Shown here: positions 8,619-47,341 of the stretch, piece after piece
Layout: each line of letters opens with the position of its first letter
How positions within the stretch are numbered: position 1 is the stretch's first letter
Assembly: GCA_030531085.1 (NCBI GenBank)
Contig: JAUNOM010000019.1
Coordinates: 1 to 47,341 of the forward strand
DNA: 47,341 bases
Direction: 5' to 3'
DNA from: Prevotellaceae bacterium
GTDB taxonomy: Bacteria; Bacteroidota; Bacteroidia; Bacteroidales; Bacteroidaceae
Notes under the pieces: generated by a model
The model's input: the letters and a program-made list of their open reading frames with translations, nothing else
The model's database searches: none
What the model was told of the DNA's origin: nothing
Position numbers and translations under genes: made by a program

Positions 8619-8840
8619 GGTTGTTGGTTGTGGGTTTTAGGTTGTAGGTCTGGAGGGTTGTGGGGTGTTGAGTTGTAGGTTATGGGTTTTTGGTTGTAGG
8701 TTTTAAGTTGAGGGTAGTTCTATATAACACCCACAACCTACAACCAAAAACCTCGCAACCAAACACCATAATTTACAACCTACAACCAAAAACCACACAA
8801 CCAAAGACCGAAAACCCACAACCTACAACCAAAAACCAAC
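8619..8840. repeat. GT-rich/AC-rich imperfect palindrome before ispD
   Basis: The left half (to about 8715) consists of GGTTGTAGGTTTT-like units and the right half (from about 8738) of ACAACCTACAACC and CCAAAAACC units repeated three to four times. The two halves are roughly inverse complements around a centre near 8725, so a long imperfect hairpin can form. The AC-rich half runs directly into the ispD start codon and would serve as its leader. No gene is seen. Confidence 0.8.
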
Positions 8841-20207: not shown

Positions 20208-20238
20208 CAAAGGTAACAAAAAAGGTAATATTAACCAA
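20208..20238 (-). promoter_or_regulatory. Promoter of the bPH-like gene
   Basis: On the minus strand TTG (20236-20238), 20-nt spacer and TACCTTTG (20208-20215) match the Bacteroidota consensus, 25 bp upstream of the ATG. Confidence 0.65.
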
Positions 20239-20265
20239 ACAATCCTGCAAAAAACGGCAATTCAC

Positions 20266-20296
20266 TTGCACAATCAAAACAAATAAAGTAAATTTG
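20266..20296 (+). promoter_or_regulatory. Promoter of fumarase
   Basis: TTG (20266-20268), 20-nt spacer and TAAATTTG (20289-20296) match the consensus. The leader that follows is A/C-rich (AAACAACCAAATAACCAACA), as is usual in genomes that do not use Shine-Dalgarno sites. Confidence 0.7.
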
Positions 20297-20340
20297 CAGT
20301 CATAAAGAAAAACAAAACAACCAAATAACCAACAGCAAAT

Positions 20341-27642: not shown

Positions 27643-28194
27643 ATGGCAACACCAGACACTACAGCGGAATTCAGGAACGCGATGTCCCTCTGCCGTGACA
27701 TCTTCTCAAAGAAGCTCTATGACTACAAGCCTTCATGGCGAATGCTGCGCCCGTCATCGCTCACGGACCAGCTGTTCATAAAGGCAAAGCGCATACGTAC
27801 CCTTGAGGTCACGGGCAAATCGCTTGTGGGCGAGGGCATACTGCCGGAGTTCATGGCACTCATCAACTACGGGATAATAGGGCTTATACAACTGGAGAAG
27901 GGGTATGCCGAGAAGGTGGACATGAGCAATGACGAGGCGATGGCGCTGTATGACCAGCACGCGCAGATGTGCACAGAGCTGATGCTGAAGAAGAATCATG
28001 ACTACGGAGAGGCGTGGCGTGACATGAGGACAAGCTCGTACACGGACATAATACTCACAAAACTGGAGCGGATAAAGGAGATAGAGGACAAGAACGGAGC
28101 CACTACAGTGAGCGAGGGCATAGACTCCAACTATATGGACATAATAAACTACGCCACATTCGGAGTGATAAAACTCACCGAGAAGAACCAATGA
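27643..28194 (+). CDS. DUF1599 protein with internal duplication
   Basis: A 183-residue helical protein with two similar halves. Half one has [20 protein letters not shown], later [17 protein letters not shown]. Half two has [20 protein letters not shown], later [17 protein letters not shown]. This is the DUF1599 arrangement, which I recall being described as a nucleotide-modification-associated domain; its activity is not established here. It overlaps the DoxX-TIM gene by four bases (ATGA), in the order DUF1599-DoxX-tpiA-SPOR that I remember from Bacteroides. Confidence 0.8.
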
Positions 28195-30296
28195 GCCTGC
28201 TGCTGAACATACTCACGAACATAAGCCGCATCATAGTCGGCATAACATTCATCCTTTCCGGCTTCGTGAAGGCGGTGGATCCTACTGGCACGCAGTACAA
28301 GCTGCAGGACTATGCGGAGGCGGTAGGGATAGAGACACTGGCGGACTGGATGACAATGACGGCCGCCGTGGCGCTGGCGGCAGTGGAGTTCGTGCTCGGA
28401 ATACTGCTGTTATTCGCCATAAGGCGCAGACTCGTCACAAGGCTCACGCTGCTGTTCATCAGCGTGATGACCGTAATCACGGTGTGGATATACGCCGCGA
28501 ACCCCGTGAGTGACTGCGGATGCTTCGGCGATGCCATCATACTGACGAACGGGGAGACGCTGCTGAAGAACATAATACTTCTGGCCTTATGCCTGCTGAC
28601 GGCACGCTTCCCGATGCGGATGCCACGGATGGTGAGCCTGAACAACCAGTGGATAGTGCTGCATTACTCCACGGTGTTCATACTGATAATATCCGCCTAC
28701 AGCCTGTACCACCTGCCTATATTCGACTTTAGGCCATATCACATAGGGGCAAACCTGGTAAAGGGGATGGAGATACCGGACGATGCGGAGCAGCCGCAGT
28801 TCGAGACAACGTTCATAATGGAGAAGGATGGGGAGCGGAAGGAGTTCTCCTTGGACAACTACCCTGACTCTACATGGACATTCATTGACTCGAAGACAAC
28901 GGTGATAAGGCAGGGATACGTGCCGCCGATACACGACTTCTCCATAACACTGCTGCCATACCGCAGCGACGAGGAGCCGGAAGGGGAGAATTATACCGAG
29001 GACATCACGGGCATAGTGCTTGCGGACACCAGCTATACCTTCCTGCTTATAGCGCCCTATCTGGAGAAGGCAAGCGACGCGACCTTCGGCAATATAGCAC
29101 GGATATACGAGTATGCCCTTGACAAGGGATACAAGTTCTACTGTCTGACCGCAAGCGGAAGGGAGGCAATAGGTAGATGGAGCGACCTGACAGGAGCGGA
29201 ATACCCCTTCTGCAACACTGACGCCACAACGCTGAAGACCATAATCAGAAGCAATCCGGGACTGGTACTGCTGAAGAATGGCACCGTGGTGGGCAAATGG
29301 GGATACAACGACCTGCCCGCAGAACAGCTGGAGTCAGAGGGCGGCGGGCTGTCAACGGAGTCGGCAGTGCTGCAGCAGAATGACGTGATGGCAAAGAGAA
29401 TAGCGAAGATACTGCTATGGTTCGTACTGCCACTGACATTCCTTGTCATAGCGGACAGGCTGTGGATGTGGAGCCGATGGATTAAGAGAAAAGAGACAAG
29501 AAACTCTGATAGATTACTCAAACTATTAAAAATCAAACGAAAAATGAGAAAGAAAATTGTAGCAGGTAACTGGAAGATGAACAAGAACCTGCAGGAGGGC
29601 GTGGCTCTCGCGAAGGAACTTACAGAGGTAGTAAAGAACCCTAACTGCGGTGTTATTATCTGTACACCTTTCATTCACCTTGCAAGTGTGGCCGAAATCG
29701 TTAAGGGCAGCGCCATAGAACTGGGTGCGGAGAACTGCGCGGACAAGGCAAGCGGTGCATACACAGGTGAGGTTTCAGCCGAGATGGTTAAGTCTACAGG
29801 CGCTGAATACGTAATCCTCGGCCACTCAGAGCGCCGTGAGTATTACAACGAGACACCGGAAATACTCAAGGAGAAGGTGCAGCTTGCACTGGCAAACGGC
29901 CTGAAGGTAATCTTCTGCATTGGCGAGACACTCGCTGAACGCGAGGCTAACAAGCAGAATGAGGTTGTAAAGGCAGAGCTGGCTGGCAGCGTCTTCAACC
30001 TCACAGCAGAGGAGTGGAAGAACATTGTCATAGCTTACGAGCCAATCTGGGCCATCGGTACGGGCAAGACCGCTACAGCAGACCAGGCCGAGGAGATTCA
30101 TGCCTACATCCGTTCTGCCGTTGCTGAGGTGTACGGACAGGAGGTTGCCGACGACACTACAATCCTTTACGGCGGCTCATGCAAGGCAAGCAACGCGCCA
30201 GAGCTGTTCGCAAAGCCTGACATCGACGGTGGTCTCATCGGCGGTGCATCCCTCAAGGCCGCTGACTTCAAGGGCATCATCGACGCATGGAACTAA
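28191..30296 (+). CDS. DoxX/MauE-like membrane protein fused in frame to triosephosphate isomerase
   Basis: A 701-residue open frame. Residues 1-180 hold about five hydrophobic helices and the redox-type motif DCGCFGD (Cys109, Cys111), as in DoxX/MauE-like proteins. Residues 190-400 form a soluble region, and a further helix (about 413-432, [20 protein letters not shown]) is followed by the basic tail [23 protein letters not shown] complete triosephosphate isomerase starts at residue 452. No stop codon lies between the two. If made as one chain, the positive-inside tail puts TIM in the cytoplasm, tethered to the membrane. The A-rich stretch before the inner ATG looks like an ordinary leader, so a separate TIM is equally possible. 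Confidence 0.7.
29544..30296 (+). CDS. tpiA: Triosephosphate isomerase (domain of the fusion, or separate product)
   Basis: A complete 250-residue TIM interconverting glyceraldehyde 3-phosphate and dihydroxyacetone phosphate in glycolysis. The catalytic set is present: Asn9 and Lys11 in GNWKMNK, His94 in LGHSERR, Glu166 in [11 protein letters not shown] and the phosphate-binding YGGS and GGASL segments. The ATG is preceded by ATTAAAAATCAAACGAAAA, a typical Bacteroidota leader, and codon choice shifts to the more biased use expected of a highly expressed glycolytic gene. This favours independent initiation even though the upstream frame reads straight through. A strong hairpin follows the stop. 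Confidence 0.9.
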
Positions 30297-35776: not shown

Positions 35777-35856
35777 GGCCCGGCGGTAAAAGATGCGAAA
35801 GCACCTTGAACCCTAAAATATATATATGTAACTTTCAACAAAGAGTTTTATATATT

Positions 35857-36927
35857 ATGATACTGACATATTTCAATTATAAGGAACCGGGATGGGAATT
35901 GGCGGAACTGGCACCTTTAAAGACTGTAAACCTGATTGTTGGAAGAAATGCGACAGGTAAGAGCAGGACTATAAGGGCACTCCTCCAGGTGGCTGCTTTC
36001 ATGCAGATGAAGGACCATTTCCTGTCAAGTAAGAGCTTTACTGTTGATATGGCTTTTTCTGATCCTGATGACACAGATTGGAATATGAGCTATGGCTTCA
36101 AGGTGAATGAAGGGATAGTGGAAAAGGAAACCCTTTCTGTAAAAGGCGGACTGCTGTTAAAACGCACAAGAAAAACCGCAAGATATAAGGAGGATAAGAT
36201 CAATCCCCCGTCAGAAAAGCTGGTGGTACAGATAAGACGTGACAAGGAACTCTATCCGGAAATAGAAAGACTGATGCAATGGGTGGAGGGTGTAACGTAT
36301 ATCTCGTTTTCAGACATCAATCCTTTTATGGTATTATTTCCCACACGCTTGTTCTCTCCTATGAACTTTAGTGAGATAGTTGACTCTCTTACAGATGAGG
36401 AAAGGAAGAGTGTGCTGAATGAGGCGCGTATGTTAGGATATAATATATCCGAAATGACGACCATAGTGAACAGTGATATTAAGTTGGTTCAGATAAAGGA
36501 ACGTTCCGTACCTAACAGAATGTTGGATATGCAACTGTCAAGTGGTATGCTCAGAACATTATATTTGCTCTGCTTCATGCAGGTTATAAAGCATAACCGC
36601 AAACTGAGTATGCTGCTGGTCGATGATATGGGAGAGGGATTGGATTATGGCCGCTCCACGCAATTTGGCAAGATGATTTTTGAAAACTGTGAGAGTAGCG
36701 GCCTGCAGTTGGTGGCAAGCTCAAATGATGCCTTCCTTATGGATGTCGTGGATATAGATAACTGGCAAGTGTTAAGCAGGAAGGGCGGTAAGGTCACAAC
36801 CGTCAACAGGGCGAACAATTCGGATATGTTCCGTAAGTTCCGCATGACAGGATTAAGTAATTTTGACTTCTTCTCATCGGATTTTATAGACAAGTTTATA
36901 TCAAGACAGCAGCGGGCCAATGGATAA
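35857..36927 (+). CDS. AAA ATPase of OLD/RloA-like type, candidate defence component
   Basis: A 356-residue ATPase. Walker A is GRNATGKS (29-36), just after the beta-strand NLIV. Walker B is LLVDDMGEGLD with Asp256/Asp257, and SSNDAFLMDVVD follows. The SSGMLRTLYLLCFMQV segment before Walker B occupies the place of the ABC-type signature. Together this indicates an SMC/OLD-class ATPase (AAA_15/AAA_21). The longest frame starts with TTG at 35806; the ATG at 35857 is preferred because it begins exactly at the conserved strand. It overlaps the next gene by 8 nt. The DNA is clearly more AT-rich than the flanks, suggesting acquisition. Function by analogy: sensor ATPase of a two-gene defence module. 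Confidence 0.75.
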   Translation: MILTYFNYKEPGWELAELAPLKTVNLIVGRNATGKSRTIRALLQVAAFMQMKDHFLSSKSFTVDMAFSDPDDTDWNMSYGFKVNEGIVEKETLSVKGGLLLKRTRKTARYKEDKINPPSEKLVVQIRRDKELYPEIERLMQWVEGVTYISFSDINPFMVLFPTRLFSPMNFSEIVDSLTDEERKSVLNEARMLGYNISEMTTIVNSDIKLVQIKERSVPNRMLDMQLSSGMLRTLYLLCFMQVIKHNRKLSMLLVDDMGEGLDYGRSTQFGKMIFENCESSGLQLVASSNDAFLMDVVDIDNWQVLSRKGGKVTTVNRANNSDMFRKFRMTGLSNFDFFSSDFIDKFISRQQRANG

Positions 36928-37630
36928 GTGTGCGATTTTTGTGGAAGGGCAGTCAGAACAGATATTTGTCCGTGAGCTGCTGCTGCGCCGTTACTGCTGG
37001 GATGCGCGTAATATAGCTGTGAGATGCTACAAACTGCAGTCAGAGGTGTTTGAGACTGCTGAATATGACTTTGGAGATGATGATGCGGAGCATTTCTATC
37101 AGATTGTAGATGTGGGCAATGACAATAAGGTGCTGTCGGCTATGACTAAAAGAGCACCTAAAATGAATGAGTCGGGATTTACACAGATAGTGGGTCTGCG
37201 TGATATGTATTGTCGTGTTTATCGTGAAATGTCTCCACATTGTGTCTCACGCGAGTTAAACGAGGAGTTCATAAATAATGCCAATGAACTGATAAGGGAT
37301 ATGAACCTGTCCGAAACGACAAGATTGCATTTCGCTATCATGGAAGTGGAGACATGGATGTTGGCGCTGTTGGAAAAATGGAAAGGGAATATCTCGGATG
37401 AGGACATAGCTCTATATTTCGACTCGCAGGCGGAACTTGAGAATATTTTCCATCCTGCAGCGGTGATGAAGAATATAACGGAGAAAACAGGTGAGCCGTA
37501 CGAGAAACACAAGACTCAGGTGAATTCCATCATGTCGAATATTGAGTGGCAGGATTTTCAGAATTTGTATGATTCTAATAGATGCCCTTCATTTAACCGG
37601 TTCATGGATGACATTCTGCCCTCTGCATGA
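36920..37630 (+). CDS. TOPRIM-like protein of DUF4276/RloB type, candidate effector nuclease
   Basis: A 236-residue protein starting MDKCAIFVEGQSEQIFVREL. The VEGxSE motif (Glu9) is the first acidic motif of TOPRIM-like DUF4276/RloB proteins. QIVGLRDMYCRVY fits the central Asp motif and HFAIMEVETWMLALLEKW fits the family glutamate segment. Its start lies within the ATPase gene, so the two are translated together. By analogy with AbiLi/AbiLii and AriA/AriB (PARIS), it may be a nuclease released or activated by the ATPase. A full DxD motif is not evident, so catalytic activity is uncertain. Confidence 0.65.
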   Translation: MDKCAIFVEGQSEQIFVRELLLRRYCWDARNIAVRCYKLQSEVFETAEYDFGDDDAEHFYQIVDVGNDNKVLSAMTKRAPKMNESGFTQIVGLRDMYCRVYREMSPHCVSRELNEEFINNANELIRDMNLSETTRLHFAIMEVETWMLALLEKWKGNISDEDIALYFDSQAELENIFHPAAVMKNITEKTGEPYEKHKTQVNSIMSNIEWQDFQNLYDSNRCPSFNRFMDDILPSA

Positions 37631-38346
37631 TATTGTCCGCTCTGGCGTTTCCATTACCGCTATATGTCCTACACCATACGATGGACAGGCCTCTGTTTCT
37701 ATTCTCTTGTCTAAGTGAATTTTATGCTTTATATATACTTTTATACAAATAGAAATAAAATTTTCTGATTTTTCTTTTCTGTTTCGTTTTTTTTGTATAT
37801 CTTTGCAATTGATTTCAATATGGTCGCATTTTTTCGAGAGGGGGATTGAGTCCCTGCTGATATAAATGACGACATGGAGCCCACGCAGTGCATAAATGGT
37901 GATGCTTCCAATGGGAGCGTTTACGTATGATGCGGGTCATGGGAGGAAATTACGACATAGTAAAAAGGCGTTCATGTAGCGCTATATTCCAAACATCAGG
38001 AAACTTCGCAACTTTCAGGAATCTTTGGGATACAGGTAACATAGAATGTCCTCGGGATGTGTTTATAACGCATCCCTTATATATACTTTACAGGGACTTG
38101 TGAGTATTGCACCGTTGTGGTGCGGCGAACCGCTTTGTATGGGATATGTAAGGGACGGTAAGTGCATTGGCGTGGGCTTCATGTTGCTTCGTTTCTACGA
38201 TTCCGGGCAATGCGAAGGCCTCCTGATGTGGAACGGGCAACGTGACAGTTCCGCGCTCTTTTTATTTATTCGGTAGCATAAAGAAACAATTCACATAATC
38301 TGAACAATGTCTATTCTGGAACTGTAGACACACCATTGTTTGTGCA
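37631..38346. other. Gene-free structured region between defence-like pair and caspase cluster
   Basis: About 700 bp with no convincing gene. It contains a TATCTTTG -7 element and several hairpins: GGGATGTG/CGCATCCC (38054-38076), GCACC/GGTGC (38109-38123) and GGAAC/GTTCC (38230-38252) followed by a T-rich run. An inverted repeat AACAATG (38303-38309)/CATTGTT (38334-38340) lies just before the caspase start. A 76-codon frame at 38046-38276 lacks protein-like features. It may encode a non-coding RNA of about 450 nt or the structured leader of the caspase cluster. Confidence 0.5.
37798..37805 (+). promoter_or_regulatory. -7 element in the gene-free region
   Basis: TATCTTTG matches TAnnTTTG and is followed by GCAATTG, as in other promoters here. 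No good -33 TTG is found at the usual spacing. It would start a transcript near 37812, some 530 nt before the caspase gene. Confidence 0.45.
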
Positions 38347-39159
38347 ATGATTCCAAGTATGAGACGGTTACTTTTTCTTGTGTTGTCTTTCTGTTTTCTT
38401 TCCACCGCTTTGTATGGACAGAAGCGTGAAAGAAAATGGTATGTCATGGTGGTGGGCGTGAGTGACTATTTCCGTCCGGACATACCGAAGCTCACCAAGC
38501 CTGTAAATGACGCTGATACAGTTGCGAAACTGTTCTCCACTTACAATGCCGAGGTTATGATACTTAAGAACAAGGAGGCTACGGGCGAAAGCATAGTGAG
38601 CAAGATGATGACCTTCTTCTCCCGTTCCACACAGTATGACAATGTGTTGTTCTTCTTTTCCGGTCATGGTTACCGTAATGGCTTCTGTCCATACGACTAT
38701 GGCTGCGCTGGTCATAGTTCTGTGTCTTATGATGATATCAAGAAGGTGTTCCGCAGCATACAGGCCAATGGCCGTGTGATACTGGCCGACGCGTGCTTCT
38801 CCGGAGGGTTGCGCCCCAAGCAGGATCCAGTGCGTAACGACACCGCACAGGTGCAGCAGACGGCGGCATCGTCTGTAAAGCGCAAGCAGCAGGTGATGCT
38901 CTTCCTCTCGTCACGCGGTTATGAGCCGTCGTATGAGAGCCCCTCCATGACAAACGGATACTTCACCACCTATCTGAAGGAAGCCCTGCAGGGAGCGGCG
39001 GATGCGAACAGAAACGGTAAGGTTACAGCGGCGGAGCTGCATGAGTATGTCTCCATGAAGCTAAAGGCAAGCCTTGGAGACAGGCAGCACTCCAATATGT
39101 GGGGTGACTTCAGCAAAGGATGGATTCTCGCACGTGTGCCCGTGACACAGACACAATAG
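38347..39159 (+). CDS. Exported caspase-like cysteine protease (peptidase C14)
   Basis: A 270-residue protein. A signal peptide (MRRLLFLVLSFCFLSTALYG, from an in-frame ATG at 38359) precedes a caspase fold starting RKWYVMVVGVSDYF. The catalytic dyad is clear: His107 in FFSGHGYRNG and Cys150 in ILADACFSGG. It should act in the periplasm or outside, cutting after a basic residue if metacaspase-like. The length is that of the fold alone, with no extra sensor domain. It heads the rightward run of signalling genes, 12 bp before the first FHA gene. Confidence 0.88.
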   Translation: MIPSMRRLLFLVLSFCFLSTALYGQKRERKWYVMVVGVSDYFRPDIPKLTKPVNDADTVAKLFSTYNAEVMILKNKEATGESIVSKMMTFFSRSTQYDNVLFFFSGHGYRNGFCPYDYGCAGHSSVSYDDIKKVFRSIQANGRVILADACFSGGLRPKQDPVRNDTAQVQQTAASSVKRKQQVMLFLSSRGYEPSYESPSMTNGYFTTYLKEALQGAADANRNGKVTAAELHEYVSMKLKASLGDRQHSNMWGDFSKGWILARVPVTQTQ

Positions 39160-39171
39160 TACTTACAGACT

Positions 39172-39831
39172 ATGAGAGTATATAATATAGGAAGAAAGGG
39201 AAATCAGAACTTCCCACTTGACAAGAAAGAGAAGGTCAATGACATCCATGCACGGCTTGTCATCAGCGATGATGGGGTGTGGACACTGGAGGATCTCGGC
39301 TCGCTCAACGGCACTTACATAATAACGGAGAATGGAGAGCAGGTGGAGGTGCGCAAGAAGCAGATAACGGAATACACGCGTATCATCCTTGCGGACACCT
39401 CCGTTATGGGCTCATCATTCTTTGCGCATCATCTGTTGGAGCAGGATCCCGATGATTACCGTAAGGAGTTCCGCCATCTGGTGGAGCAGTATGAACGCAT
39501 ATCGCGCCAGAAGGGAGAGATGGAGGAGCGCATCAAGCAGCGCAGGATGGTGCTAAGCATACTGCCCGCAGTCACCTCTTCGGCGCTGGGTGTATCTGCG
39601 AGGCTGGTGTTCAGCAACTCATCCAATATAGTATATATTATAATAGGTATGATGTCAGGTGTTACAGCGTTGCTTAATATGCTTATCACATGGTATAACA
39701 ACCGCGACAAGAGCCTGAAGGTGTTCTCTATGCGTATGCAGAACCTCCTTGTCTGTCCACGGTGTGGCTTCCCTCTTACCGACTATAACCTGCAAGCACA
39801 GCAGTGTCCTGCGTGCAAGGCCCATGCGTAG
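39172..39831 (+). CDS. FHA domain protein with coiled coil, two membrane helices and zinc ribbon
   Basis: A 219-residue protein. Residues 1-80 form an FHA domain with MRVYNIGRKG, the conserved NDIHARL and LEDLGSLNGTYI, so phosphothreonine binding is expected. A charged helix (about 90-125) is followed by two hydrophobic segments (about 128-148 and 150-170, VYIIIGMMSGVTALLNML). The C-terminus is a zinc ribbon with two CxxC pairs (CPRCGFPLTDYNLQAQQCPAC). Both ends should face the cytoplasm. It lies between the caspase and second FHA gene and is a plausible reader of the kinase encoded downstream. Confidence 0.82.
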   Translation: MRVYNIGRKGNQNFPLDKKEKVNDIHARLVISDDGVWTLEDLGSLNGTYIITENGEQVEVRKKQITEYTRIILADTSVMGSSFFAHHLLEQDPDDYRKEFRHLVEQYERISRQKGEMEERIKQRRMVLSILPAVTSSALGVSARLVFSNSSNIVYIIIGMMSGVTALLNMLITWYNNRDKSLKVFSMRMQNLLVCPRCGFPLTDYNLQAQQCPACKAHA

Positions 39832-40100
39832 GTGGGGGCTTGGTTGATTAGTTGTTTGGTGGTTTGGTTAATACTACATCAATACGCAGACTATCCAAAG
39901 GACAAACAACCAAGACACGAAACCACAAAACAGCCAACACGTCAGACAACCAACCTCACAAAACCACCCAATCAACCTCACAAAACCACCCAATCAACCA
40001 AACAACCAGATAAGCATTCAACCAAACAACTAAACCACTAAACAACTAACCCCCAAATCAACCAAATAACAAAACCACTAAACCACCAAACAACCAACAA
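39832..40100. repeat. GT-rich then AC-rich low-complexity leader
   Basis: The first 40 bases are rich in TTGGTTGATTAGTTG-like sequence. From about 39895 to the ATG at 40101 the strand is almost only A and C with scattered T (CAACCTCACAAAACCACCCA appears twice in near succession). The halves can pair imperfectly. It is the same kind of element as that before ispD. It separates two genes of the cluster; a short frame in it is low-complexity and not supported. Confidence 0.75.
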
Positions 40101-40643
40101 ATGTCCCAGAAACTCTCATGCGTCTGTCCGCATTGTAAGCAGACTATAACCATCCGTCGTCCCGATACTCCGGGCCGTTACAAGTATACCTGCACCGCCT
40201 GCAAGGAGGCTTTCGCCATAGCCTTCAAGGATGAGAATGCCGAGGCGGCGCAGTCATCGAAGGATGACAACGCACCGCGTCCTGTGGAAGCGGCGCAGCT
40301 GAACCGCCATCTCTATGCCACTGTTGGCGGATTACGAAAGAAGCGCCGCGGACTGTTCGGCAGGCAACAGCCGCTGATACCGTTGCGTGCAGGCCGGCAG
40401 CTGATAGGGCGTGAGGATGAGTCATACCCTTCGGACATCTCTTTTGATGACCCCATGATGAGCCGTCAGTCTGTAGAGCTGACAGTGGAGCGCCACGATG
40501 GAGGATATTCATACGTCCTCAGGGTGAGACGTATGCTCAATCCCGTGATGCACAATGCGCAGCCGTTACGGCAGGGGGAGGTCGTGGTGCTTGCGGTAGG
40601 AGACTCTATAACCCTTGGAAATACAACACTGATATTACAATAG
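40101..40643 (+). CDS. Zinc-ribbon and FHA domain protein
   Basis: A 180-residue cytoplasmic protein. An N-terminal zinc ribbon of the MJ0042 kind (CPHCKQTITI, later YTCTACKEAF) is joined by an acidic linker to a C-terminal FHA-like domain (about 95-180). The FHA region shows LIGREDESYPSDISFDDPMM, SRQSVEL and the closing VVVLAVGDSITLGNTTLIL. It ends seven bases before the kinase gene, so it is the likely phosphopeptide-binding partner or substrate of that kinase. Confidence 0.82.
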   Translation: MSQKLSCVCPHCKQTITIRRPDTPGRYKYTCTACKEAFAIAFKDENAEAAQSSKDDNAPRPVEAAQLNRHLYATVGGLRKKRRGLFGRQQPLIPLRAGRQLIGREDESYPSDISFDDPMMSRQSVELTVERHDGGYSYVLRVRRMLNPVMHNAQPLRQGEVVVLAVGDSITLGNTTLILQ

Positions 40644-40649
40644 AAGTAT

Positions 40650-42134
40650 ATGACAGAAATAAAAAAGACACTCAAGGCCGGCACATTGCTGCATGGCGAG
40701 AAGCTGACCTATGAGGTGGAGGCGGTACTTGGCGCCGGTACATTCGGCATCACGTATAAGGCAAAGACGCGGGTTACAATAGGTAATGTGACACATACGG
40801 TGCGTTACGCCATAAAGGAGTTCTTTGTGGCGGAGGCCTGCCTGCGTGCTGATGATGGAAGCGTCATTGTCAACACGGCGCAAAAGGAACTGTACACCTC
40901 ACAGCTCGCGGCGTTCAGGCGTGAGGCGCGTATGCTGTGCGATATGCCCAAGCATCAGGGCATAGTGAGCGTCAATGAGCGTATAGACGCTTTCAATACC
41001 TCATATTATGTCATGGAGTATCTCGGAGAGTCACTTGCGCATCACATAGAGTCCGCTCCGAGTCATATCCTGTCAGAACCCGAGGCACTGGAGATATTCC
41101 TGAACATCTCCAAGGCTGTGGCCTTTCTGCATTCCCATTACCGTCTGCACCTTGACATAAAGCCAGACAATATAATGTTCTATGAAGAACAGCCGAAACT
41201 CATAGACTTCGGCCAGTCAAGGGTGTTTGACGGCAAGGATTATGACAGGCAGAAGGGTACCGTCAGTGCCGGCTTCTCGCCATTGGAGCAGTATAAGGGC
41301 ATCAACAGCTTCTCGCCCTCTGCCGACATCTACGCTCTGGGAGCCACTCTGCTGTATATGCTTAGCGGCAAGCGTCCCGTAGAGGCTAAGGACATGACGG
41401 CGGAGTATATAGACTCCGTGCTGCCACCGGGCATTGCCGAGGAGACGAGGCAGGTGCTACATAAGTGCCTTGCGCGTGACCCTCGGCAGCGTGGAGAGAG
41501 AATATCCGACATACTCTCCATTCTCGGATATATTATATCTGATGACAACGGCACCACTCTTATAGCAGAAGATCAGAAGCCGGACAGACCCTGTATCCAT
41601 ATAAGCGGCACTGTGAAGAAGGCGCTGATAGGGGTGTTGGTGATAGTGCTGGCGTTTCTTGCAGTATGGCAGATGCTCCCATTGTTCTCTGGTATGCGGC
41701 AGCATACGGACAGGGACACAGTGACGGCTGTAACGGATACAGTAAGAAAGGATTCTGTCAGTACTGATGTGGCAGGTCCTGTGGGAACCAATCCTAAGGA
41801 CACTGTAGTGAAGAAATCCACAGGCCCAGAGACAGCGCCGGGAAAGCCGAACGATGTGATAACTAAGGAGGGCGGTACAGACGAGAAGCCCGTAAAGCAG
41901 CCGGAAAATAATGAAGCTCCAAAAAACAATACACTCGATTATGCCTCATGGAGTGGGCGTGTGATTAATGGAAAGCCTGACGGTTATGGCAAGATGACGT
42001 TCACCCGTCCGCATCTTATACCCGGTACGTCCATACGTGCAGAAGTGGGTGACGTACTCAAGGGAGCATTCTCTGATGGACGTCTGGTCAATGGCGAACT
42101 GAATGGTAAATATATAGAAGTGGAGGAAAGATGA
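40650..42134 (+). CDS. Transmembrane Ser/Thr protein kinase with MORN-like C-terminus
   Basis: A 494-residue kinase. The N-lobe has GAGTFG (28-33) and Lys56 in YAIKEFF; the catalytic loop is HLDIKPDN (167-174, Asp169, Asn174) and the metal motif is DFG (186-188). The usual HRD arginine is a leucine, making it a non-RD kinase that may not need activation-loop phosphorylation. A membrane helix (about 328-350) follows, then a Thr/Pro/Lys-rich extracytoplasmic linker and a MORN-like unit (YASWSGRVINGKPDGYGKM) near 435-455. Its stop overlaps the next start (ATGA). It is the apparent signalling centre of the cluster. Confidence 0.9.
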   Translation: MTEIKKTLKAGTLLHGEKLTYEVEAVLGAGTFGITYKAKTRVTIGNVTHTVRYAIKEFFVAEACLRADDGSVIVNTAQKELYTSQLAAFRREARMLCDMPKHQGIVSVNERIDAFNTSYYVMEYLGESLAHHIESAPSHILSEPEALEIFLNISKAVAFLHSHYRLHLDIKPDNIMFYEEQPKLIDFGQSRVFDGKDYDRQKGTVSAGFSPLEQYKGINSFSPSADIYALGATLLYMLSGKRPVEAKDMTAEYIDSVLPPGIAEETRQVLHKCLARDPRQRGERISDILSILGYIISDDNGTTLIAEDQKPDRPCIHISGTVKKALIGVLVIVLAFLAVWQMLPLFSGMRQHTDRDTVTAVTDTVRKDSVSTDVAGPVGTNPKDTVVKKSTGPETAPGKPNDVITKEGGTDEKPVKQPENNEAPKNNTLDYASWSGRVINGKPDGYGKMTFTRPHLIPGTSIRAEVGDVLKGAFSDGRLVNGELNGKYIEVEER

Positions 42135-43228
42135 AAAACAGTATTATTGCCGCACTATGCGCTATGGTTCCGCTAACCGTCTGCTCGCAGACACAGCAGC
42201 CCGCAAAGGCCAATGTAGCCAATGTGCTCCGTTCCCTCGGCATCAACGGTGTCGATACGCTGCGTCCGGGCAACACCTTATATAATATACGTGGACAGCG
42301 TGTGTCGCTGCGCGTGTCGGCAGACGGCGTGGAGCATATCGGCATTCCAGTGTTCCCTAACGAGATGCGCACCAAGTCACCATCGCCCGTGTATGACTAT
42401 ATAGAGTATACGCTGCTTGTCAACACCTTTCATCTGCCCGAGGCATCAGTGTTGCAGGGCGGTGTCACCTTCAGGAAGGGCGCATGGAGTGATATGCTTG
42501 CCATCACTTCCGATATGCCATGCACCGTAAACTGCAACGATGGCAAAAGTTATGAGGTGACATGGCAGCGCAGTGACGGGAGCACTCTGGTGGCGGTCAC
42601 CTTCCCGATGCAGTATGATATGCTGATGTTCAGTAACAAGGAGGAACTGGAACAGCGCCTGATACAGAAGCTGAAGACCATCAACGGCCAGCAGACGGAC
42701 AACACCATACGTCATGCCAAGGCGGAACTGTTCGCACGGCATTACGACAACAACGAGGTGTACGTACTGGAGGGAGACATACATATAAAGCAGATTATAA
42801 CCAATAACCTTTACTATCGCCGTTCCGGTTCCACATACCGCCTCTTCTCCTCATCGCGTCTGCCGGCGGAGTCATTAGCCAATATCCTGCTCACGGCGGA
42901 CCGCCGTCTGCCAAAGGCGCGCATTCTCCTTTCCGTTGTAAAGTATGATGCCACCACAGAGAAGGTGGAAATCACGGCGGCGGACTGGCTGGACTGCATG
43001 AAGGCGGACGGTTGCCGATCATATTACGCCTTTGACAAGGAGGTGGACGGCAAGGCTACCGTCGTGCTGTACGCCGCCAACGAGACGACAGGCTACGACC
43101 ATGTGCTGACACTGACGTGCAATATAGACCAGCTTGACGGCTCGGCAGTGACACTTCAGGGCACTGCCTATCTCTTTTCGCCTACTTCCAATGTTAAAAA
43201 CCTATTTTACGAATACAAGAAGAAATGA
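42131..43228 (+). CDS. Exported protein of unknown function in the kinase cluster
   Basis: A 365-residue protein with signal peptide MKNSIIAALCAMVPLTVCS. No known domain is recognised. It is beta-rich with a mixed helical middle (KEELEQRLIQKLKTINGQQT) and two cysteines in MPCTVNC that could form a disulfide. An early segment TLYNIRGQRVSL resembles the short signature seen near C-terminal sorting regions of Prevotella proteins, but here it is N-terminal. It overlaps both the kinase and the next gene by four bases, so it is part of the same translational unit. Confidence 0.7.
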   Translation: MKNSIIAALCAMVPLTVCSQTQQPAKANVANVLRSLGINGVDTLRPGNTLYNIRGQRVSLRVSADGVEHIGIPVFPNEMRTKSPSPVYDYIEYTLLVNTFHLPEASVLQGGVTFRKGAWSDMLAITSDMPCTVNCNDGKSYEVTWQRSDGSTLVAVTFPMQYDMLMFSNKEELEQRLIQKLKTINGQQTDNTIRHAKAELFARHYDNNEVYVLEGDIHIKQIITNNLYYRRSGSTYRLFSSSRLPAESLANILLTADRRLPKARILLSVVKYDATTEKVEITAADWLDCMKADGCRSYYAFDKEVDGKATVVLYAANETTGYDHVLTLTCNIDQLDGSAVTLQGTAYLFSPTSNVKNLFYEYKKK

Positions 43229-44550
43229 CAATGAAACGCTTATTTTCAATTTTCCTTGCTTTGTTTTTTACCCTGTGTCATGTCTCCGCCGCTTCCGAGG
43301 CCACAGACTCTATGAACTCCATACAGACAGACACAGCCTATCTCTCCGCCACTGTCCGTGATGGCTCGGTATACAAGGCCCGTCTTCATGGACATGAGAG
43401 GCTTCTGGAGATCGTGAAGACCGCTGTGCCCGGTTGCCGCTTACCCGACGAGACCGTCGCACAGCATATAAAGGAGATTATCATCAAGAACTCTGGGCAG
43501 CCCACGGTGTTCTTCTATGTCAGGAAGAGTGACCTGTTACAGCCTGCCACAGCAGTGCCACCGGAGAACAAGCCCGCCCCCGTGCGGACTACAGTGCAGC
43601 CCTGCGCCACTGTCAGCTTTGCCTTCTCACCCGAGTCGGATGTCAAGGCTGATCGACGCCATGTGGAGAATAACATCACAGCACTGCTCAATGCCGTCAA
43701 CACAGCATACAGCAACAGCAAGGAACCTGACCTTACGGGGATAGACATGACACCCGACTGCCTCAATAGCCTGCTGCTGGGATGGAAGCACAAGCCATAT
43801 TACTGTGTTAAGTCGCGTAATGTCAGTCCCTGCCTTTATGCATCGGACAATATGAATGTGCGTGACATACCTGTCTATTCGCCTAACGATGAGGCACCGG
43901 ACAGGAATCTCTCCATATCCTTCAATGCCCAAGGCCAGATAGAGTGTGTGCGCTTCGCCGCCGAACTTGCTTCATACGAGAAGATAATGCGAAAAGGCGG
44001 TAAGGAGATAACAGAAGCAACGGATGTGGCGCGCCGCACCTCTATCCTCTCCTTTGTGGAGAACTACCGTCAGTATTATGTCGACATGGATGTTCAAAAG
44101 ATAGAGAACATCTTTGCGGACGATGCCATCATCATTACTGGCAGTGTCGTTGAGAAGGCGGTGAAACAGCCAGATACAAGAAAGATTGTGAAGGAGAAGA
44201 GGGTGATATACAACCGTAAGACCAAGGAAGAGTATATAGCCGCCCTGCGAACACTCTTTAAGAATCTGGAGGAGGTGAGCGTAATTTTTGATGATATCCG
44301 TGTGGTGCAGGATCCAAATTATAAGGATATTTATGGCGTGACGCTCTTGCAGCATTGGCAAACAAAAAACAAGAAAAACGTAAAATACAAGGATTTGGGT
44401 TATCTTTTCCTGCTGTGGGATTTCCAAGACCCTGAGAAACCCATGATACACGCGCGTACATGGCAACCGAAGGACATGATAATTAATCAAGAGGAAATCT
44501 TCAGCCTTAACAGTTTCCGATACGGAGACAGAAATACAAAGAGAAAATAA
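43225..44550 (+). CDS. Exported protein with C-terminal NTF2-like domain
   Basis: A 441-residue protein with a signal peptide (MKRLFSIFLALFFTLCHVSA, from the second in-frame ATG). The middle part contains a Pro-rich linker (about 108-125). The C-terminal 165 residues begin SILSFVENYRQYYVDMDVQKIENIFADDA (split over two helices), the usual opening of an NTF2/SnoaL-like fold, and end with a DLGYLFLLWDF strand. Such domains bind small ligands or serve as interaction modules. It starts by ATGA overlap with the preceding gene. No enzyme motif is seen. Confidence 0.7.
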   Translation: MTMKRLFSIFLALFFTLCHVSAASEATDSMNSIQTDTAYLSATVRDGSVYKARLHGHERLLEIVKTAVPGCRLPDETVAQHIKEIIIKNSGQPTVFFYVRKSDLLQPATAVPPENKPAPVRTTVQPCATVSFAFSPESDVKADRRHVENNITALLNAVNTAYSNSKEPDLTGIDMTPDCLNSLLLGWKHKPYYCVKSRNVSPCLYASDNMNVRDIPVYSPNDEAPDRNLSISFNAQGQIECVRFAAELASYEKIMRKGGKEITEATDVARRTSILSFVENYRQYYVDMDVQKIENIFADDAIIITGSVVEKAVKQPDTRKIVKEKRVIYNRKTKEEYIAALRTLFKNLEEVSVIFDDIRVVQDPNYKDIYGVTLLQHWQTKNKKNVKYKDLGYLFLLWDFQDPEKPMIHARTWQPKDMIINQEEIFSLNSFRYGDRNTKRK

Positions 44551-44585
44551 AATAATGAATAATACATAATTTAATTCAAACAACA

Positions 44586-45425
44586 ATGAGAAAACTATTA
44601 TTTTTGACAGGCTTCCTGCTGGTAAGCATAGTCATGTCAGCACAGCAACTTGAGGTCCATGACTTCGAAACGCTAACAATGTCAGCGGAGGCGCGAACCA
44701 ATCCCGTAGTGGACCCCATCTCCGGTCGTAACTGCGGTTTGCTTATCATCAAGGGAAACAATATCAAGGAATATAGTTTCTCTGGAAAGATTATAGGCGA
44801 GCCGGAGTATTCAGAGGGTGAAGTGAGGCTCTATATGGCTCCGGGAGCCAACTATCTTGAGGTGAGGAGTGAGAAACTCGGAAATACAGACTTCGACTTC
44901 AACGGCAGCGTGATACTCTCGCAGACGGTTTACACCATGACACTCATCTACAACACCGAGCGTTACCGCACACTGGTGATGCCTGTAGCCGCCCTGGGCA
45001 AGACCTCCTCATTCGGTGCCATGATAGGTATAGTGAAGAAATTCGGTGGATATGTCAAAGGACATTCCAACTTCAAGTCAGCCGAGGACGACATAGAGTG
45101 TAATGAGAAGGGATTTACCGACACTGGTAACGAGGTGTGGTTCAGCGGCGCGGAGGAGCAGGCACGCCTCGCAGTGACTGCCGGTATGCTTTACAGGCTG
45201 TCCAAGCCATTTTATATGTACGGCGGTCTGGGCTACGGACAGTACACATACTCCCGTCAGACCTCTGACGGACTGTGGGCGAAGAACATAGACTCCAGCG
45301 TGGACGGCGTAGAGGTTGAGGCCGGAATTATAGGCAGATGGAAGAGTGTTGCCATCTCCGCAGGCGTGGAGACCTGTCAGATGAAGCACTGGGAGCTGAA
45401 CCTTGGTATAGGTGTATTCTTCTGA
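44586..45425 (+). CDS. Exported protein with probable outer-membrane beta-barrel
   Basis: A 279-residue protein with signal peptide MRKLLFLTGFLLVSIVMSA. The N-terminal half looks like a PEGA-like or carbohydrate-domain-like beta-sandwich (VRLYMAPGANYLEVRSEKLG). The C-terminal half has alternating strands (YMYGGLGYGQYTYSR, VEAGIIGRWKSVAISAGVE) and ends LNLGIGVFF, a terminal-phenylalanine barrel signature. It may link the kinase pathway to the cell surface. It follows its neighbour after a short AT-rich gap. Confidence 0.7.
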   Translation: MRKLLFLTGFLLVSIVMSAQQLEVHDFETLTMSAEARTNPVVDPISGRNCGLLIIKGNNIKEYSFSGKIIGEPEYSEGEVRLYMAPGANYLEVRSEKLGNTDFDFNGSVILSQTVYTMTLIYNTERYRTLVMPVAALGKTSSFGAMIGIVKKFGGYVKGHSNFKSAEDDIECNEKGFTDTGNEVWFSGAEEQARLAVTAGMLYRLSKPFYMYGGLGYGQYTYSRQTSDGLWAKNIDSSVDGVEVEAGIIGRWKSVAISAGVETCQMKHWELNLGIGVFF

Positions 45426-45467
45426 TATATGTTTTTTCAGTATGGTAAAATCTAAACAATAATAATT

Positions 45468-46826
45468 ATGAAACAGAAACTTACAATGATATTGATGTTC
45501 TTCTCACTATTTCTTGTTTCCTGTGAGGAGGACAGTTCCGACGTAGCGCTCGCCCCCGTAGTCACTATGGGAGATGTAAAGGACGTATACCGCACTGCTG
45601 TCACACTTACGGCGAATGTGGAACGCAGCGAGGGACGCAGTATAGTGGAGAGTGGATTTATAGTATCCACAACCAATGACTTTGTCAATATGACATTTGA
45701 CGAGATAAAGCAATCGTCATCATGCAAGGTGGAGCGTACCGCAAGCCCCGTCACCGCAGGACAGATGTCACTCAATGTGACTGGCCTGGAGGCAACGACA
45801 TCTTACTATTGCTGCGCCTACGTCTCCAGCGGCTACAGCGTGGCGAGGAGTGAGATGAAGGAATTCACCACCGCCGAGACATCTCTGCCCATATTTGAGG
45901 ACATCGCTTTATCTGATATAAAAATAAGCAGCTGCCATGTATCGACACAGATCATCGACATTGGCGGTGAGGATGCCGTGAAGACTTTCGAGTTCTGGTA
46001 CACAAAAGTGGGAGCTTCCGAGACTCCGGCAACGCTGAACAGGACCGATTGCCATATCGCAGATGCACCAGGTTACTCCGTTACGCTGCGTGACTTGGAG
46101 AAGAACTCACGCTACGCAGTATGTGCTAACGTTGTGACTACAACAGGACGCACGGCACAGAGCAAGGTGGTATGCTTCACTACAGGCGATATCAACGTCA
46201 CGTTTGACAATCCATCCATCAACATAGGCCAAGACTATATTGAGGTATCACAGGCTGTCAACACTCCCGAGACGGTAGTAAACGAAGGAGTCTTTTACAG
46301 CTCGGAGGTGGAGAAGCCCAATGAGAATAATAGGCAGATATTTGATGAGAATATAGACAAAAGCATCAATGTACGTATTACAGATTTGCCCGTTGGTGAC
46401 TACTATGTGCGCCCATTCGTACAGGTGGAGAAAGACGGTGTCACCTCCTATGTCTACGATGATGTGGTCAAGGTGTCCATTAAAGAGCCTGCACCCGTTC
46501 TCACTGCGTGTCAGATTGGGGAAATCACCTCATCGTCTGTTGCTGTGAGTGCATCCGTTAACAATACAGTGGTGTGCGGTGAGCGCGGCTTCTGTTATGT
46601 CGAAGGCACAGGCACTCCGACTATAGCCGACAACACCGTCACCATTACGACAGACAAACCTTTCAGTACCGTGCTGCAGCTGTTGAAGTCAGATACTGAC
46701 ATCACTATCCGCGCCTATGCTATCAATAGTAACGGCGAAGTGGGTTATAGTGAGCCTGTAACGGTACATACTAAAAAGAAGACACCATCGGTTGGAGATA
46801 TAGAGTTCCCCGAAGTGAGGCCATAA
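45468..46826 (+). CDS. Surface lipoprotein with repeated FN3/Ig-like domains
   Basis: A 452-residue lipoprotein with lipobox LVSC (Cys near residue 19) followed by EEDSSD, an acidic start that resembles surface-export signals of Bacteroidota lipoproteins. The body has about four beta-sandwich repeats with recurring YRTAVTLTANV, TTSYYCCAYVSS, NSRYAVCANVVT and DITIRAYAINSNGE segments, a pattern of fibronectin type III-like domains. It probably serves in adhesion or binding. It lies 42 bp after the barrel gene and is likely the last member of the run. Confidence 0.75.
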   Translation: MKQKLTMILMFFSLFLVSCEEDSSDVALAPVVTMGDVKDVYRTAVTLTANVERSEGRSIVESGFIVSTTNDFVNMTFDEIKQSSSCKVERTASPVTAGQMSLNVTGLEATTSYYCCAYVSSGYSVARSEMKEFTTAETSLPIFEDIALSDIKISSCHVSTQIIDIGGEDAVKTFEFWYTKVGASETPATLNRTDCHIADAPGYSVTLRDLEKNSRYAVCANVVTTTGRTAQSKVVCFTTGDINVTFDNPSINIGQDYIEVSQAVNTPETVVNEGVFYSSEVEKPNENNRQIFDENIDKSINVRITDLPVGDYYVRPFVQVEKDGVTSYVYDDVVKVSIKEPAPVLTACQIGEITSSSVAVSASVNNTVVCGERGFCYVEGTGTPTIADNTVTITTDKPFSTVLQLLKSDTDITIRAYAINSNGEVGYSEPVTVHTKKKTPSVGDIEFPEVRP

Positions 46827-46974: not shown

Positions 46975-47341
46975 ATGAGACAGACTATATTAAACATAAT
47001 ACTTTTGATAGCTCTGTTGTTGGGAGTCACATCCGCAAATGCCTACGATTTCACGTCTGAAGGTATTTATTACAACATAGTATCAAAAGATGCCCTTACC
47101 TGTACAGTAGTGAAAGGCGACAGTCCATATAGTGGCGATGTTGTTATTCCTAAAACTGTCACATCAGGATTCCTTAATGAGGCAATATTAGAAACAGAAG
47201 AAGTAACGTATAAGGTAATCGGCATTGCTAATAATGCGTTCCAGGGTTGTTCAGACTTAACGTCCATAACCCTGAGTGACGGTTTAGAGACCATCGGACG
47301 CTCCGCCTTTAAAAACTGCTCGAAGCTGAAGACGTTGAGTA
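46975..47341 (+). CDS. BspA-like leucine-rich repeat surface protein (partial)
   Basis: The first 122 codons are present; the gene runs off the right edge. A signal peptide (MRQTILNIILLIALLLGVTS) precedes a short beta-region (VVIPKTVT) typical of BspA-family proteins. Then comes the start of LRR_5 repeats, with AFQGCSDLTSITLSDGLETI and SAFKNCSKLKTL. Such proteins are secreted or surface-attached adhesins of oral and gut Bacteroidales. It is on the same strand as the kinase cluster, but the hairpins in between suggest a separate unit. Confidence 0.88.
   Translation, partial: MRQTILNIILLIALLLGVTSANAYDFTSEGIYYNIVSKDALTCTVVKGDSPYSGDVVIPKTVTSGFLNEAILETEEVTYKVIGIANNAFQGCSDLTSITLSDGLETIGRSAFKNCSKLKTLS

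Follow-up and report, generated by a model that had tools for sequence, protein, structure and literature searches.

The locus described here is a group of eight genes on one strand (38347-46826) in a 47,341 nucleotide stretch of DNA from a Prevotellaceae bacterium of the order Bacteroidales (assembly GCA_030531085.1, positions 1 to 47,341 of contig JAUNOM010000019.1), referred to below as the window. The genes encode a caspase-like protease, two FHA proteins (FHA1 and FHA2), a transmembrane Ser/Thr kinase, two secreted-looking proteins (P5 and P6), a predicted outer-membrane barrel and a lipoprotein. Among known systems, the threonine phosphorylation pathway of the type VI secretion system (T6SS) is composed of PpkA, PppA and Fha. 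Like this pathway, the locus has a transmembrane kinase with an outer part, an FHA protein and, in its relatives, a PP2C phosphatase; in distinction to it, a caspase and a LytTR regulator are additional in the present loci, and FHA2 stays far below the cut-off for TagH, the T6SS FHA protein (18.7 versus 120.25 bits). No match to T6SS core genes was found among the proteins scanned, which cover only part of the genes of the window.

The prokaryotic metacaspases and orthocaspases of PMC3501461, including metacaspase operons and proteins with possible signal peptides, share with the protease of this locus the single C14 domain, the His/Cys dyad and an Asp two residues before the Cys. An operon with FHA, PP2C and kinase genes is not named in the portion of that paper available to us, and Prevotella does not occur in its main text. 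The available text of PMC7159879 describes conflict systems centred on MoxR-vWA and on GTPases, with caspase effectors, FHA and a kinase with PP2C, in which tubulin, HSP70 and kinase-PP2C-vWA represent alternative themes on one GTPase core; the eight genes, in contrast, gave no match to MoxR, vWA or EACC1, and their caspase looks exported. The bifidobacterial PFNA cluster, according to the accessible part of PMC8430577, joins a sensor kinase and an fn3 protein in one cluster; its AAA-ATPase, DUF58 and transglutaminase were not found among the eight genes, which include a barrel and a lipoprotein instead. The operons of the tubulin-like protein FtsZl1 (Tubulin_2, PF13809) contain protein kinases and OmpA-like proteins (PMC2875224, Makarova and Koonin 2010), and the words FHA, caspase and MORN do not occur in the main text of that paper. 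FtsZl1 loci fetched in this work carry the same genes for P5, an LPP-like protein and P6 and the same MORN-like transmembrane tail as the window, whereas the window cluster has no tubulin-like gene, carries the tail as part of a kinase and has caspase and FHA genes alongside.

The initial annotation of this DNA, made from the sequence alone, knew of no description of the combination and left it between new and merely unlabelled. None was found in the open-access literature searched, among the matches listed, most subscription journals being outside its scope. The caspase-FHA-kinase island is real and recurrent, apparently unlabelled, and carries in the window an unusual fused envelope module.

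The listing of open reading frames (ORFs) returned the eight genes at the positions first annotated. The caspase, the two FHA proteins and the kinase were confirmed by domain scans, which left P5, P6, the barrel and the lipoprotein nearly without label. The catalytic residues of the cluster enzymes are intact. Export of the caspase, P5, P6, the barrel and the lipoprotein is putative and read from the N-termini. The features are:

38347..39159, plus strand, caspase (C14; PF00656, 6e-19) with a signal-peptide-like N-terminus; His107 at 38665-38667, Cys150 at 38794-38796
39172..39831, plus strand, FHA1: FHA domain (PF00498, 9e-11), hydrophobic stretch and C-terminal four-Cys ribbon
39832..40100, plus strand, intergenic repeat with hairpin fold (fold z -4.0; genome BLAST), between FHA1 and FHA2
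40101..40643, plus strand, FHA2: N-terminal zinc ribbon and FHA domain (PF00498, 4e-7), with relatives in other loci
40650..42134, plus strand, Ser/Thr kinase (PF00069, 3e-31): domain at about 40710-41492, one transmembrane helix at about 41622-41687, MORN-like outer tail at about 41931-42128
42131..43228, plus strand, P5: secreted-looking protein of an unnamed family, C-terminal part weakly NTF2-like
43225..44550, plus strand, P6: secreted-looking protein, LPP-like N-terminal part at about 43294-43545, NTF2-like domain at about 44002-44487
44586..45425, plus strand, predicted outer-membrane barrel ending in Phe (PF13505, 0.027, below cut-off); relatives in loci L195 and L057
45468..46826, plus strand, lipoprotein with fn3-like repeats (fn3, 2e-6) and a Cys-Glu-Glu-Asp start

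A recurrent island of caspase, FHA and kinase genes

Matches to an FHA1 profile were obtained in 35 of 393 genomes at the level of the order (E up to 1e-8) and in 37 of 301 at the level of the family (1e-10); many of them cover the FHA part only. Thirty-eight fetched neighbourhoods, the window, locus L030 and locus L057 of Parabacteroides distasonis made up a sample of 41; L085, where no FHA1 gene survived the ORF caller, was left out of the counts of 40 and of 38 loci given here. Within 8 kb of FHA1, the 40 loci contained FHA2 in 32 cases, PP2C in 29, the kinase in 29, the caspase in 24 and the LytTR regulator in 24, and in the window FHA2, the caspase and the kinase are all found within this distance. 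Because these labels came from our own queries, the neighbours were also clustered without labels. In 38 FHA1 loci six families recurred: FHA2 (29), PP2C (29), kinase (28, from a cluster of 57 proteins of which 37 were labelled kinase), LytTR (23), caspase (22) and an acidic protein (23, in part possibly a reflection of composition, the family being of low complexity); every other family was present in four loci at most. Part of the acidic family shows a single glycine-rich hydrophobic stretch together with repeats rich in Asp. The genes of all loci derive from our own greedy ORF caller, which misses or swaps genes, and single absences are therefore weak.

The same island is reached from the caspase. 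Among the matches listed for the 301 genomes, the caspase profile gave 35 strong ones (E up to 3.4e-73), followed by a gap to 5e-36. In a same-genome control on these matches, comprising the 150 caspase places listed and 41 of 42 FHA1 places (the second piece of the G053 gene was omitted), an FHA1 match was located within 10 kb of 25 of the 35 strong caspases, where 0.2 were expected, and of 1 of the 115 others (0.23 expected). The profile itself derived from 17 of the strong caspases. Among the 18 held out, the four partners FHA1, FHA2, PP2C and kinase were looked for up to a distance of 10 kb: one or more were present next to 17 caspases, two or more next to 14 and three or more next to 13. 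The single one without any island partner (L184) lies on a 4.7-kb contig. The core island is not a chance neighbourhood; the expectation that the caspase, FHA, FHA and kinase genes form a conserved neighbourhood was borne out in several families of Bacteroidales by the clustering and by the held-out caspases. Carriers include a Muribaculaceae bacterium (L113: LytTR, FHA1, caspase, acidic protein, FHA2 and PP2C), an uncultured Bacteroides (L101) and, without the caspase, P. distasonis L057.

The FHA proteins of the island mostly keep the residues at their key positions. All four Cys of the FHA1 ribbon are invariant in 15 of 15 aligned sequences. At positions which we take to be phosphothreonine-pocket residues, FHA1 relatives have His (45 of 45), Ser (40 of 45) and Asn (40 of 45), and FHA2 relatives have Arg (42 of 43), Ser (38 of 43) and His (35 of 43). 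In the searches made, the genome to which the window belongs has two FHA places and two kinase places over the cut-off.

Metacaspases and orthocaspases of the peptidase C14 family cleave after Arg or Lys and depend on Ca2+. To our knowledge, little is established about what bacterial caspases do beyond the cytoplasm. The C14 domain of the present protein exceeds the curated cut-off (69.2 versus 21.4 bits). His107 and Cys150 are invariant in 25 of 25 aligned sequences and in 40 of 40 island caspases, that of the window included, and Asp148, two residues before the Cys, is found in 38 of 40, which is compatible with the specificity and Ca2+ dependence of the family. The N-terminus suggests that the caspase is exported. 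If so, it would be in another compartment than the kinase domain and the FHA proteins, and the signal would need a way through the inner membrane.

We regard it as very unlikely that the locus is a suicide or anti-phage defence system in which the kinase/FHA pathway releases the caspase as a death effector. Caspases do serve as effectors of conflict systems in the accessible parts of PMC7159879 and PMC8195603, PADLOC, used at the level of single-gene models, gave matches to caspase and kinase models, and an AAA_21-DUF4276 pair resembling defence pairs lies directly upstream. However, the caspase appears to be exported and missed the NCBI cut-off of NF047832 (caspase, EACC1-associated type; 70.8 versus 140 bits), the long-conserved phosphatase and regulator fit signalling equally, and the upstream genes scanned are mostly housekeeping.

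The second module and its junction with the kinase

P5 is present in 24 of 151 genomes of the family. The 31 P6 loci tabulated, which are no random sample since L098 and L193-L195 were fetched separately, comprise 15 with a tubulin-like gene, four with a kinase, eight with secreted-looking TPR-type proteins without tubulin and four with none of these. The tubulin-like protein matches PF13809 at 5e-50 and is taken to be the FtsZl1 family of PMC2875224, as that family is presented in the text available. In 11 of the 15 tubulin loci a small transmembrane protein was called whose MORN-like outer part is homologous to the outer tail of the window kinase (hhalign 99.7%, E 4e-27) and which has a Cys-rich N-terminus where the window has the kinase; in the other four this gene was not called by the ORF caller, which misses genes. 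The N-terminal part of the window P6 resembles the separate LPP-like protein found elsewhere between P5 and P6 (95.6%, E 1e-8), which suggests a fusion. A tubulin-type locus (L039) is also present in the same genome, and in the window P6 has no tubulin match at a distance of up to 8 kb.

On this common ground the locus could be viewed as an envelope remodelling machine, in which the kinase replaces the tubulin-like GTPase to build or reshape a surface structure and the caspase acts as a structural maturase. This is unlikely: a function cannot be read from a common fold, the NTF2-like fold in its wider sense serves many purposes, and no polymer-forming protein is present in the window locus.

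Further arrangements of the module were observed. In L193 (G100:C183) a 604-aa caspase-containing protein is encoded one gene from P5-P6, with no kinase or FHA called, and constitutes a second association of a caspase with P5/P6. P6-like NTF2 domains are found in frames of about 600 aa at most 650 bases from weaker caspase matches in G085:C45 and G117:C44. In L045 (P5-LPP-P6) a TPR/Sel1 protein, with two zinc-ribbon proteins ahead, carries the MORN tail as a fusion and may be a further inner partner.

The barrel has relatives in L195 (37% identity) and L057 (27%), and the lipoprotein profile found relatives in L057, L061, L062 and L195. By the signal rule for surface lipoproteins, its Cys-Glu-Glu-Asp start suggests that the lipoprotein is located at the surface.

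Kinase and P5 occur together in four loci, the window, L030, L098 and L195. L195 has lipoprotein, barrel, kinase, P5, LPP-like protein and P6 in one run on one strand, and the last five genes of the window therefore have joint counterparts elsewhere, though in another order. L098 belongs to Muribaculum caecicola and has PP2C directly upstream, at a contig end. L030 holds caspase, FHA1, FHA2, kinase, P5 and P6 together, with LytTR present and PP2C not called. The initial annotation had treated the eight genes as one unit and had raised the question of a common order. The core and the kinase-P5-P6 run do recur, but a single eight-gene unit of fixed order is rejected: among the loci examined all eight are together in the window alone, the order in L030 is different, and the core is usually accompanied by the PP2C, LytTR and acidic protein genes.

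The kinase retains K56, D169, N174 and D186, a K/D/N/D set shared by all 68 of the island kinases compared. On the tree of the kinases, those of the window, L030 and L195 group as one clade (99/87) inside a ten-member clade (100/99), the rest of which is L098 and the caspase-island kinases L077-L079 and L081. This can be read as a caspase-island kinase lineage which gained the tail and the envelope partners. We tentatively favour, at somewhat less than an even chance, a composite of two conserved modules, in which the kinase of a phospho-signalling island has taken up an envelope module serving a tubulin-like protein elsewhere. The first module would comprise the Ser/Thr kinase, FHA1, FHA2 and the caspase, with PP2C in most relatives; LytTR and the acidic protein are found in roughly 60% of loci each. 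The second would comprise the MORN-like outer tail on a transmembrane helix, P5, the LPP-like protein and P6, with barrel and lipoprotein in some loci; it adjoins the tubulin-like GTPase in about half of the tabulated P6 loci, and in the window its transmembrane tail is fused to the island kinase.

A number of observations weigh against this composite, and some of them favour two independent neighbours, a shrunken caspase-FHA island merely beside an unrelated kinase-envelope operon. PP2C, LytTR and the acidic protein were not found among the gene calls of the window by profile search. A 269-bp repeat (39832-40100; period of about 8 nt, AACCAAAC-like, with inverted arms), which is dispersed and intergenic, folds into a hairpin and divides FHA1 from FHA2, so that a single transcript over the cluster is not established; it gave 37 BLAST matches in the genome, itself included, with further copies in the window at 8791, 9889 and 20233-20330. 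G637 carries the kinase-P5-P6 run (L195) on one contig and the caspase-FHA island (L080) on another. The branch of the window kinase is very long (1.64), and its exact place in the tree is therefore unsure. We nevertheless consider independent neighbours quite unlikely: FHA2 and the kinase are separated by just 6 bp, the six genes of L030 stand together in another order, and the window kinase branches within the caspase-island kinases. The remaining points against the composite concern its parts. The four kinases linked to P5 do not group as a single clade; their label needs two changes on the tree, and 0 of 500 shuffles gave so low a value. Of 56 full-length P6 places in the 301 genomes, only those of the window and L030 are near FHA1. 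The window FHA1 has Asn at the position with Ser in 40 of 45 relatives, and the window FHA2 has Ser where 35 of 43 have His. A crude test for a hydrophobic N-terminus flags 29 of 40 island caspases, that of the window not being among them, and the link through the lipoprotein is weak, as it rests on fn3-like repeats.

A PP2C encoded elsewhere was considered as a dedicated partner and rejected, which also counts against the composite: two such genes were found in the genome, neither linked to the cluster. One is flanked by a RelA/SpoT homologue and an unknown protein of 393 aa, and the other lies beside an ADP-ribosylglycohydrolase. Absences in this genome are soft because it is 81% complete.

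A mobile or phage origin of the cluster was set aside: of the five cluster proteins scanned the caspase alone had PHROGs matches, two of them of unknown function, and the GC content of the cluster is 0.502 compared to 0.513 for positions 1-36000. Upstream of the caspase there is a terminator-like hairpin at 38054-38076, a weak signal (9 such sites found versus 7.0 expected), within a 716-bp gap (37631-38346) which has no convincing gene, a GC content of 0.413 and no Rfam match. The gap is preceded by the AAA_21 ATPase and DUF4276-like genes (35806-37630), with overlapping ends, a GC content of 0.42-0.44 versus 0.505 for the window and similarity to the AbiLi and HEC-01 defence models. Downstream, a leucine-rich repeat protein of the BspA type, its N-terminus resembling a signal peptide, begins at 46975 and extends beyond the window (46975-47341). 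A single 701-aa ORF at 28191-30296 combines a MauE/DoxX membrane part with triosephosphate isomerase.

Proposed working of the system and its implications

Under the composite reading, lipoprotein, barrel, P5 and P6 would convey the condition of the outer envelope to the kinase tail. The kinase, judging from its intact residues, would phosphorylate itself and partners in the cytoplasm, where the FHA proteins, with FHA1 anchored in the membrane and the pocket residues mostly kept, may read phosphothreonine and assemble a complex at the inner membrane. PP2C, for which no gene is found in the window locus and which most relatives have, would reset the system. The exported caspase would finally trim its exported partners, or else other proteins of the envelope, acting in maturation or disassembly and not as a killer; this role is proposed because of its N-terminus, its intact His/Cys and the company of its gene. 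The direction of the signal and the caspase substrate are what we infer. The proposal is built on gene content, recurrence, domain identity and the shared tail, while the biochemical steps, export and co-transcription are plausible proposals. Taken in this way, the locus hints at a system, so far undescribed, that controls the cell envelope.

The two kinds of P6 loci may further be variants of one envelope-spanning device with interchangeable inner drivers, either the tubulin-like GTPase (15 of 31) or a caspase-island kinase read by FHA (4 of 31), with the exported caspase as processing protease. We hold this for possible, though with clearly more doubt than belief. The alternative themes on one core in the accessible text of PMC7159879 are a precedent for such interchange. 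If true, a bacterial cytoskeletal family, eukaryote-like phospho-signalling and an envelope caspase would be tied to one machine.

For the Bacteroidales, a recurrent seven-part island is defined, composed of LytTR, FHA1, FHA2, PP2C, kinase, acidic protein and caspase. As likely regulators and partners are encoded beside a putatively extracytoplasmic caspase, the role of this protease becomes experimentally approachable, and the tail common to the tubulin-like loci offers a handle on the job of FtsZl1.

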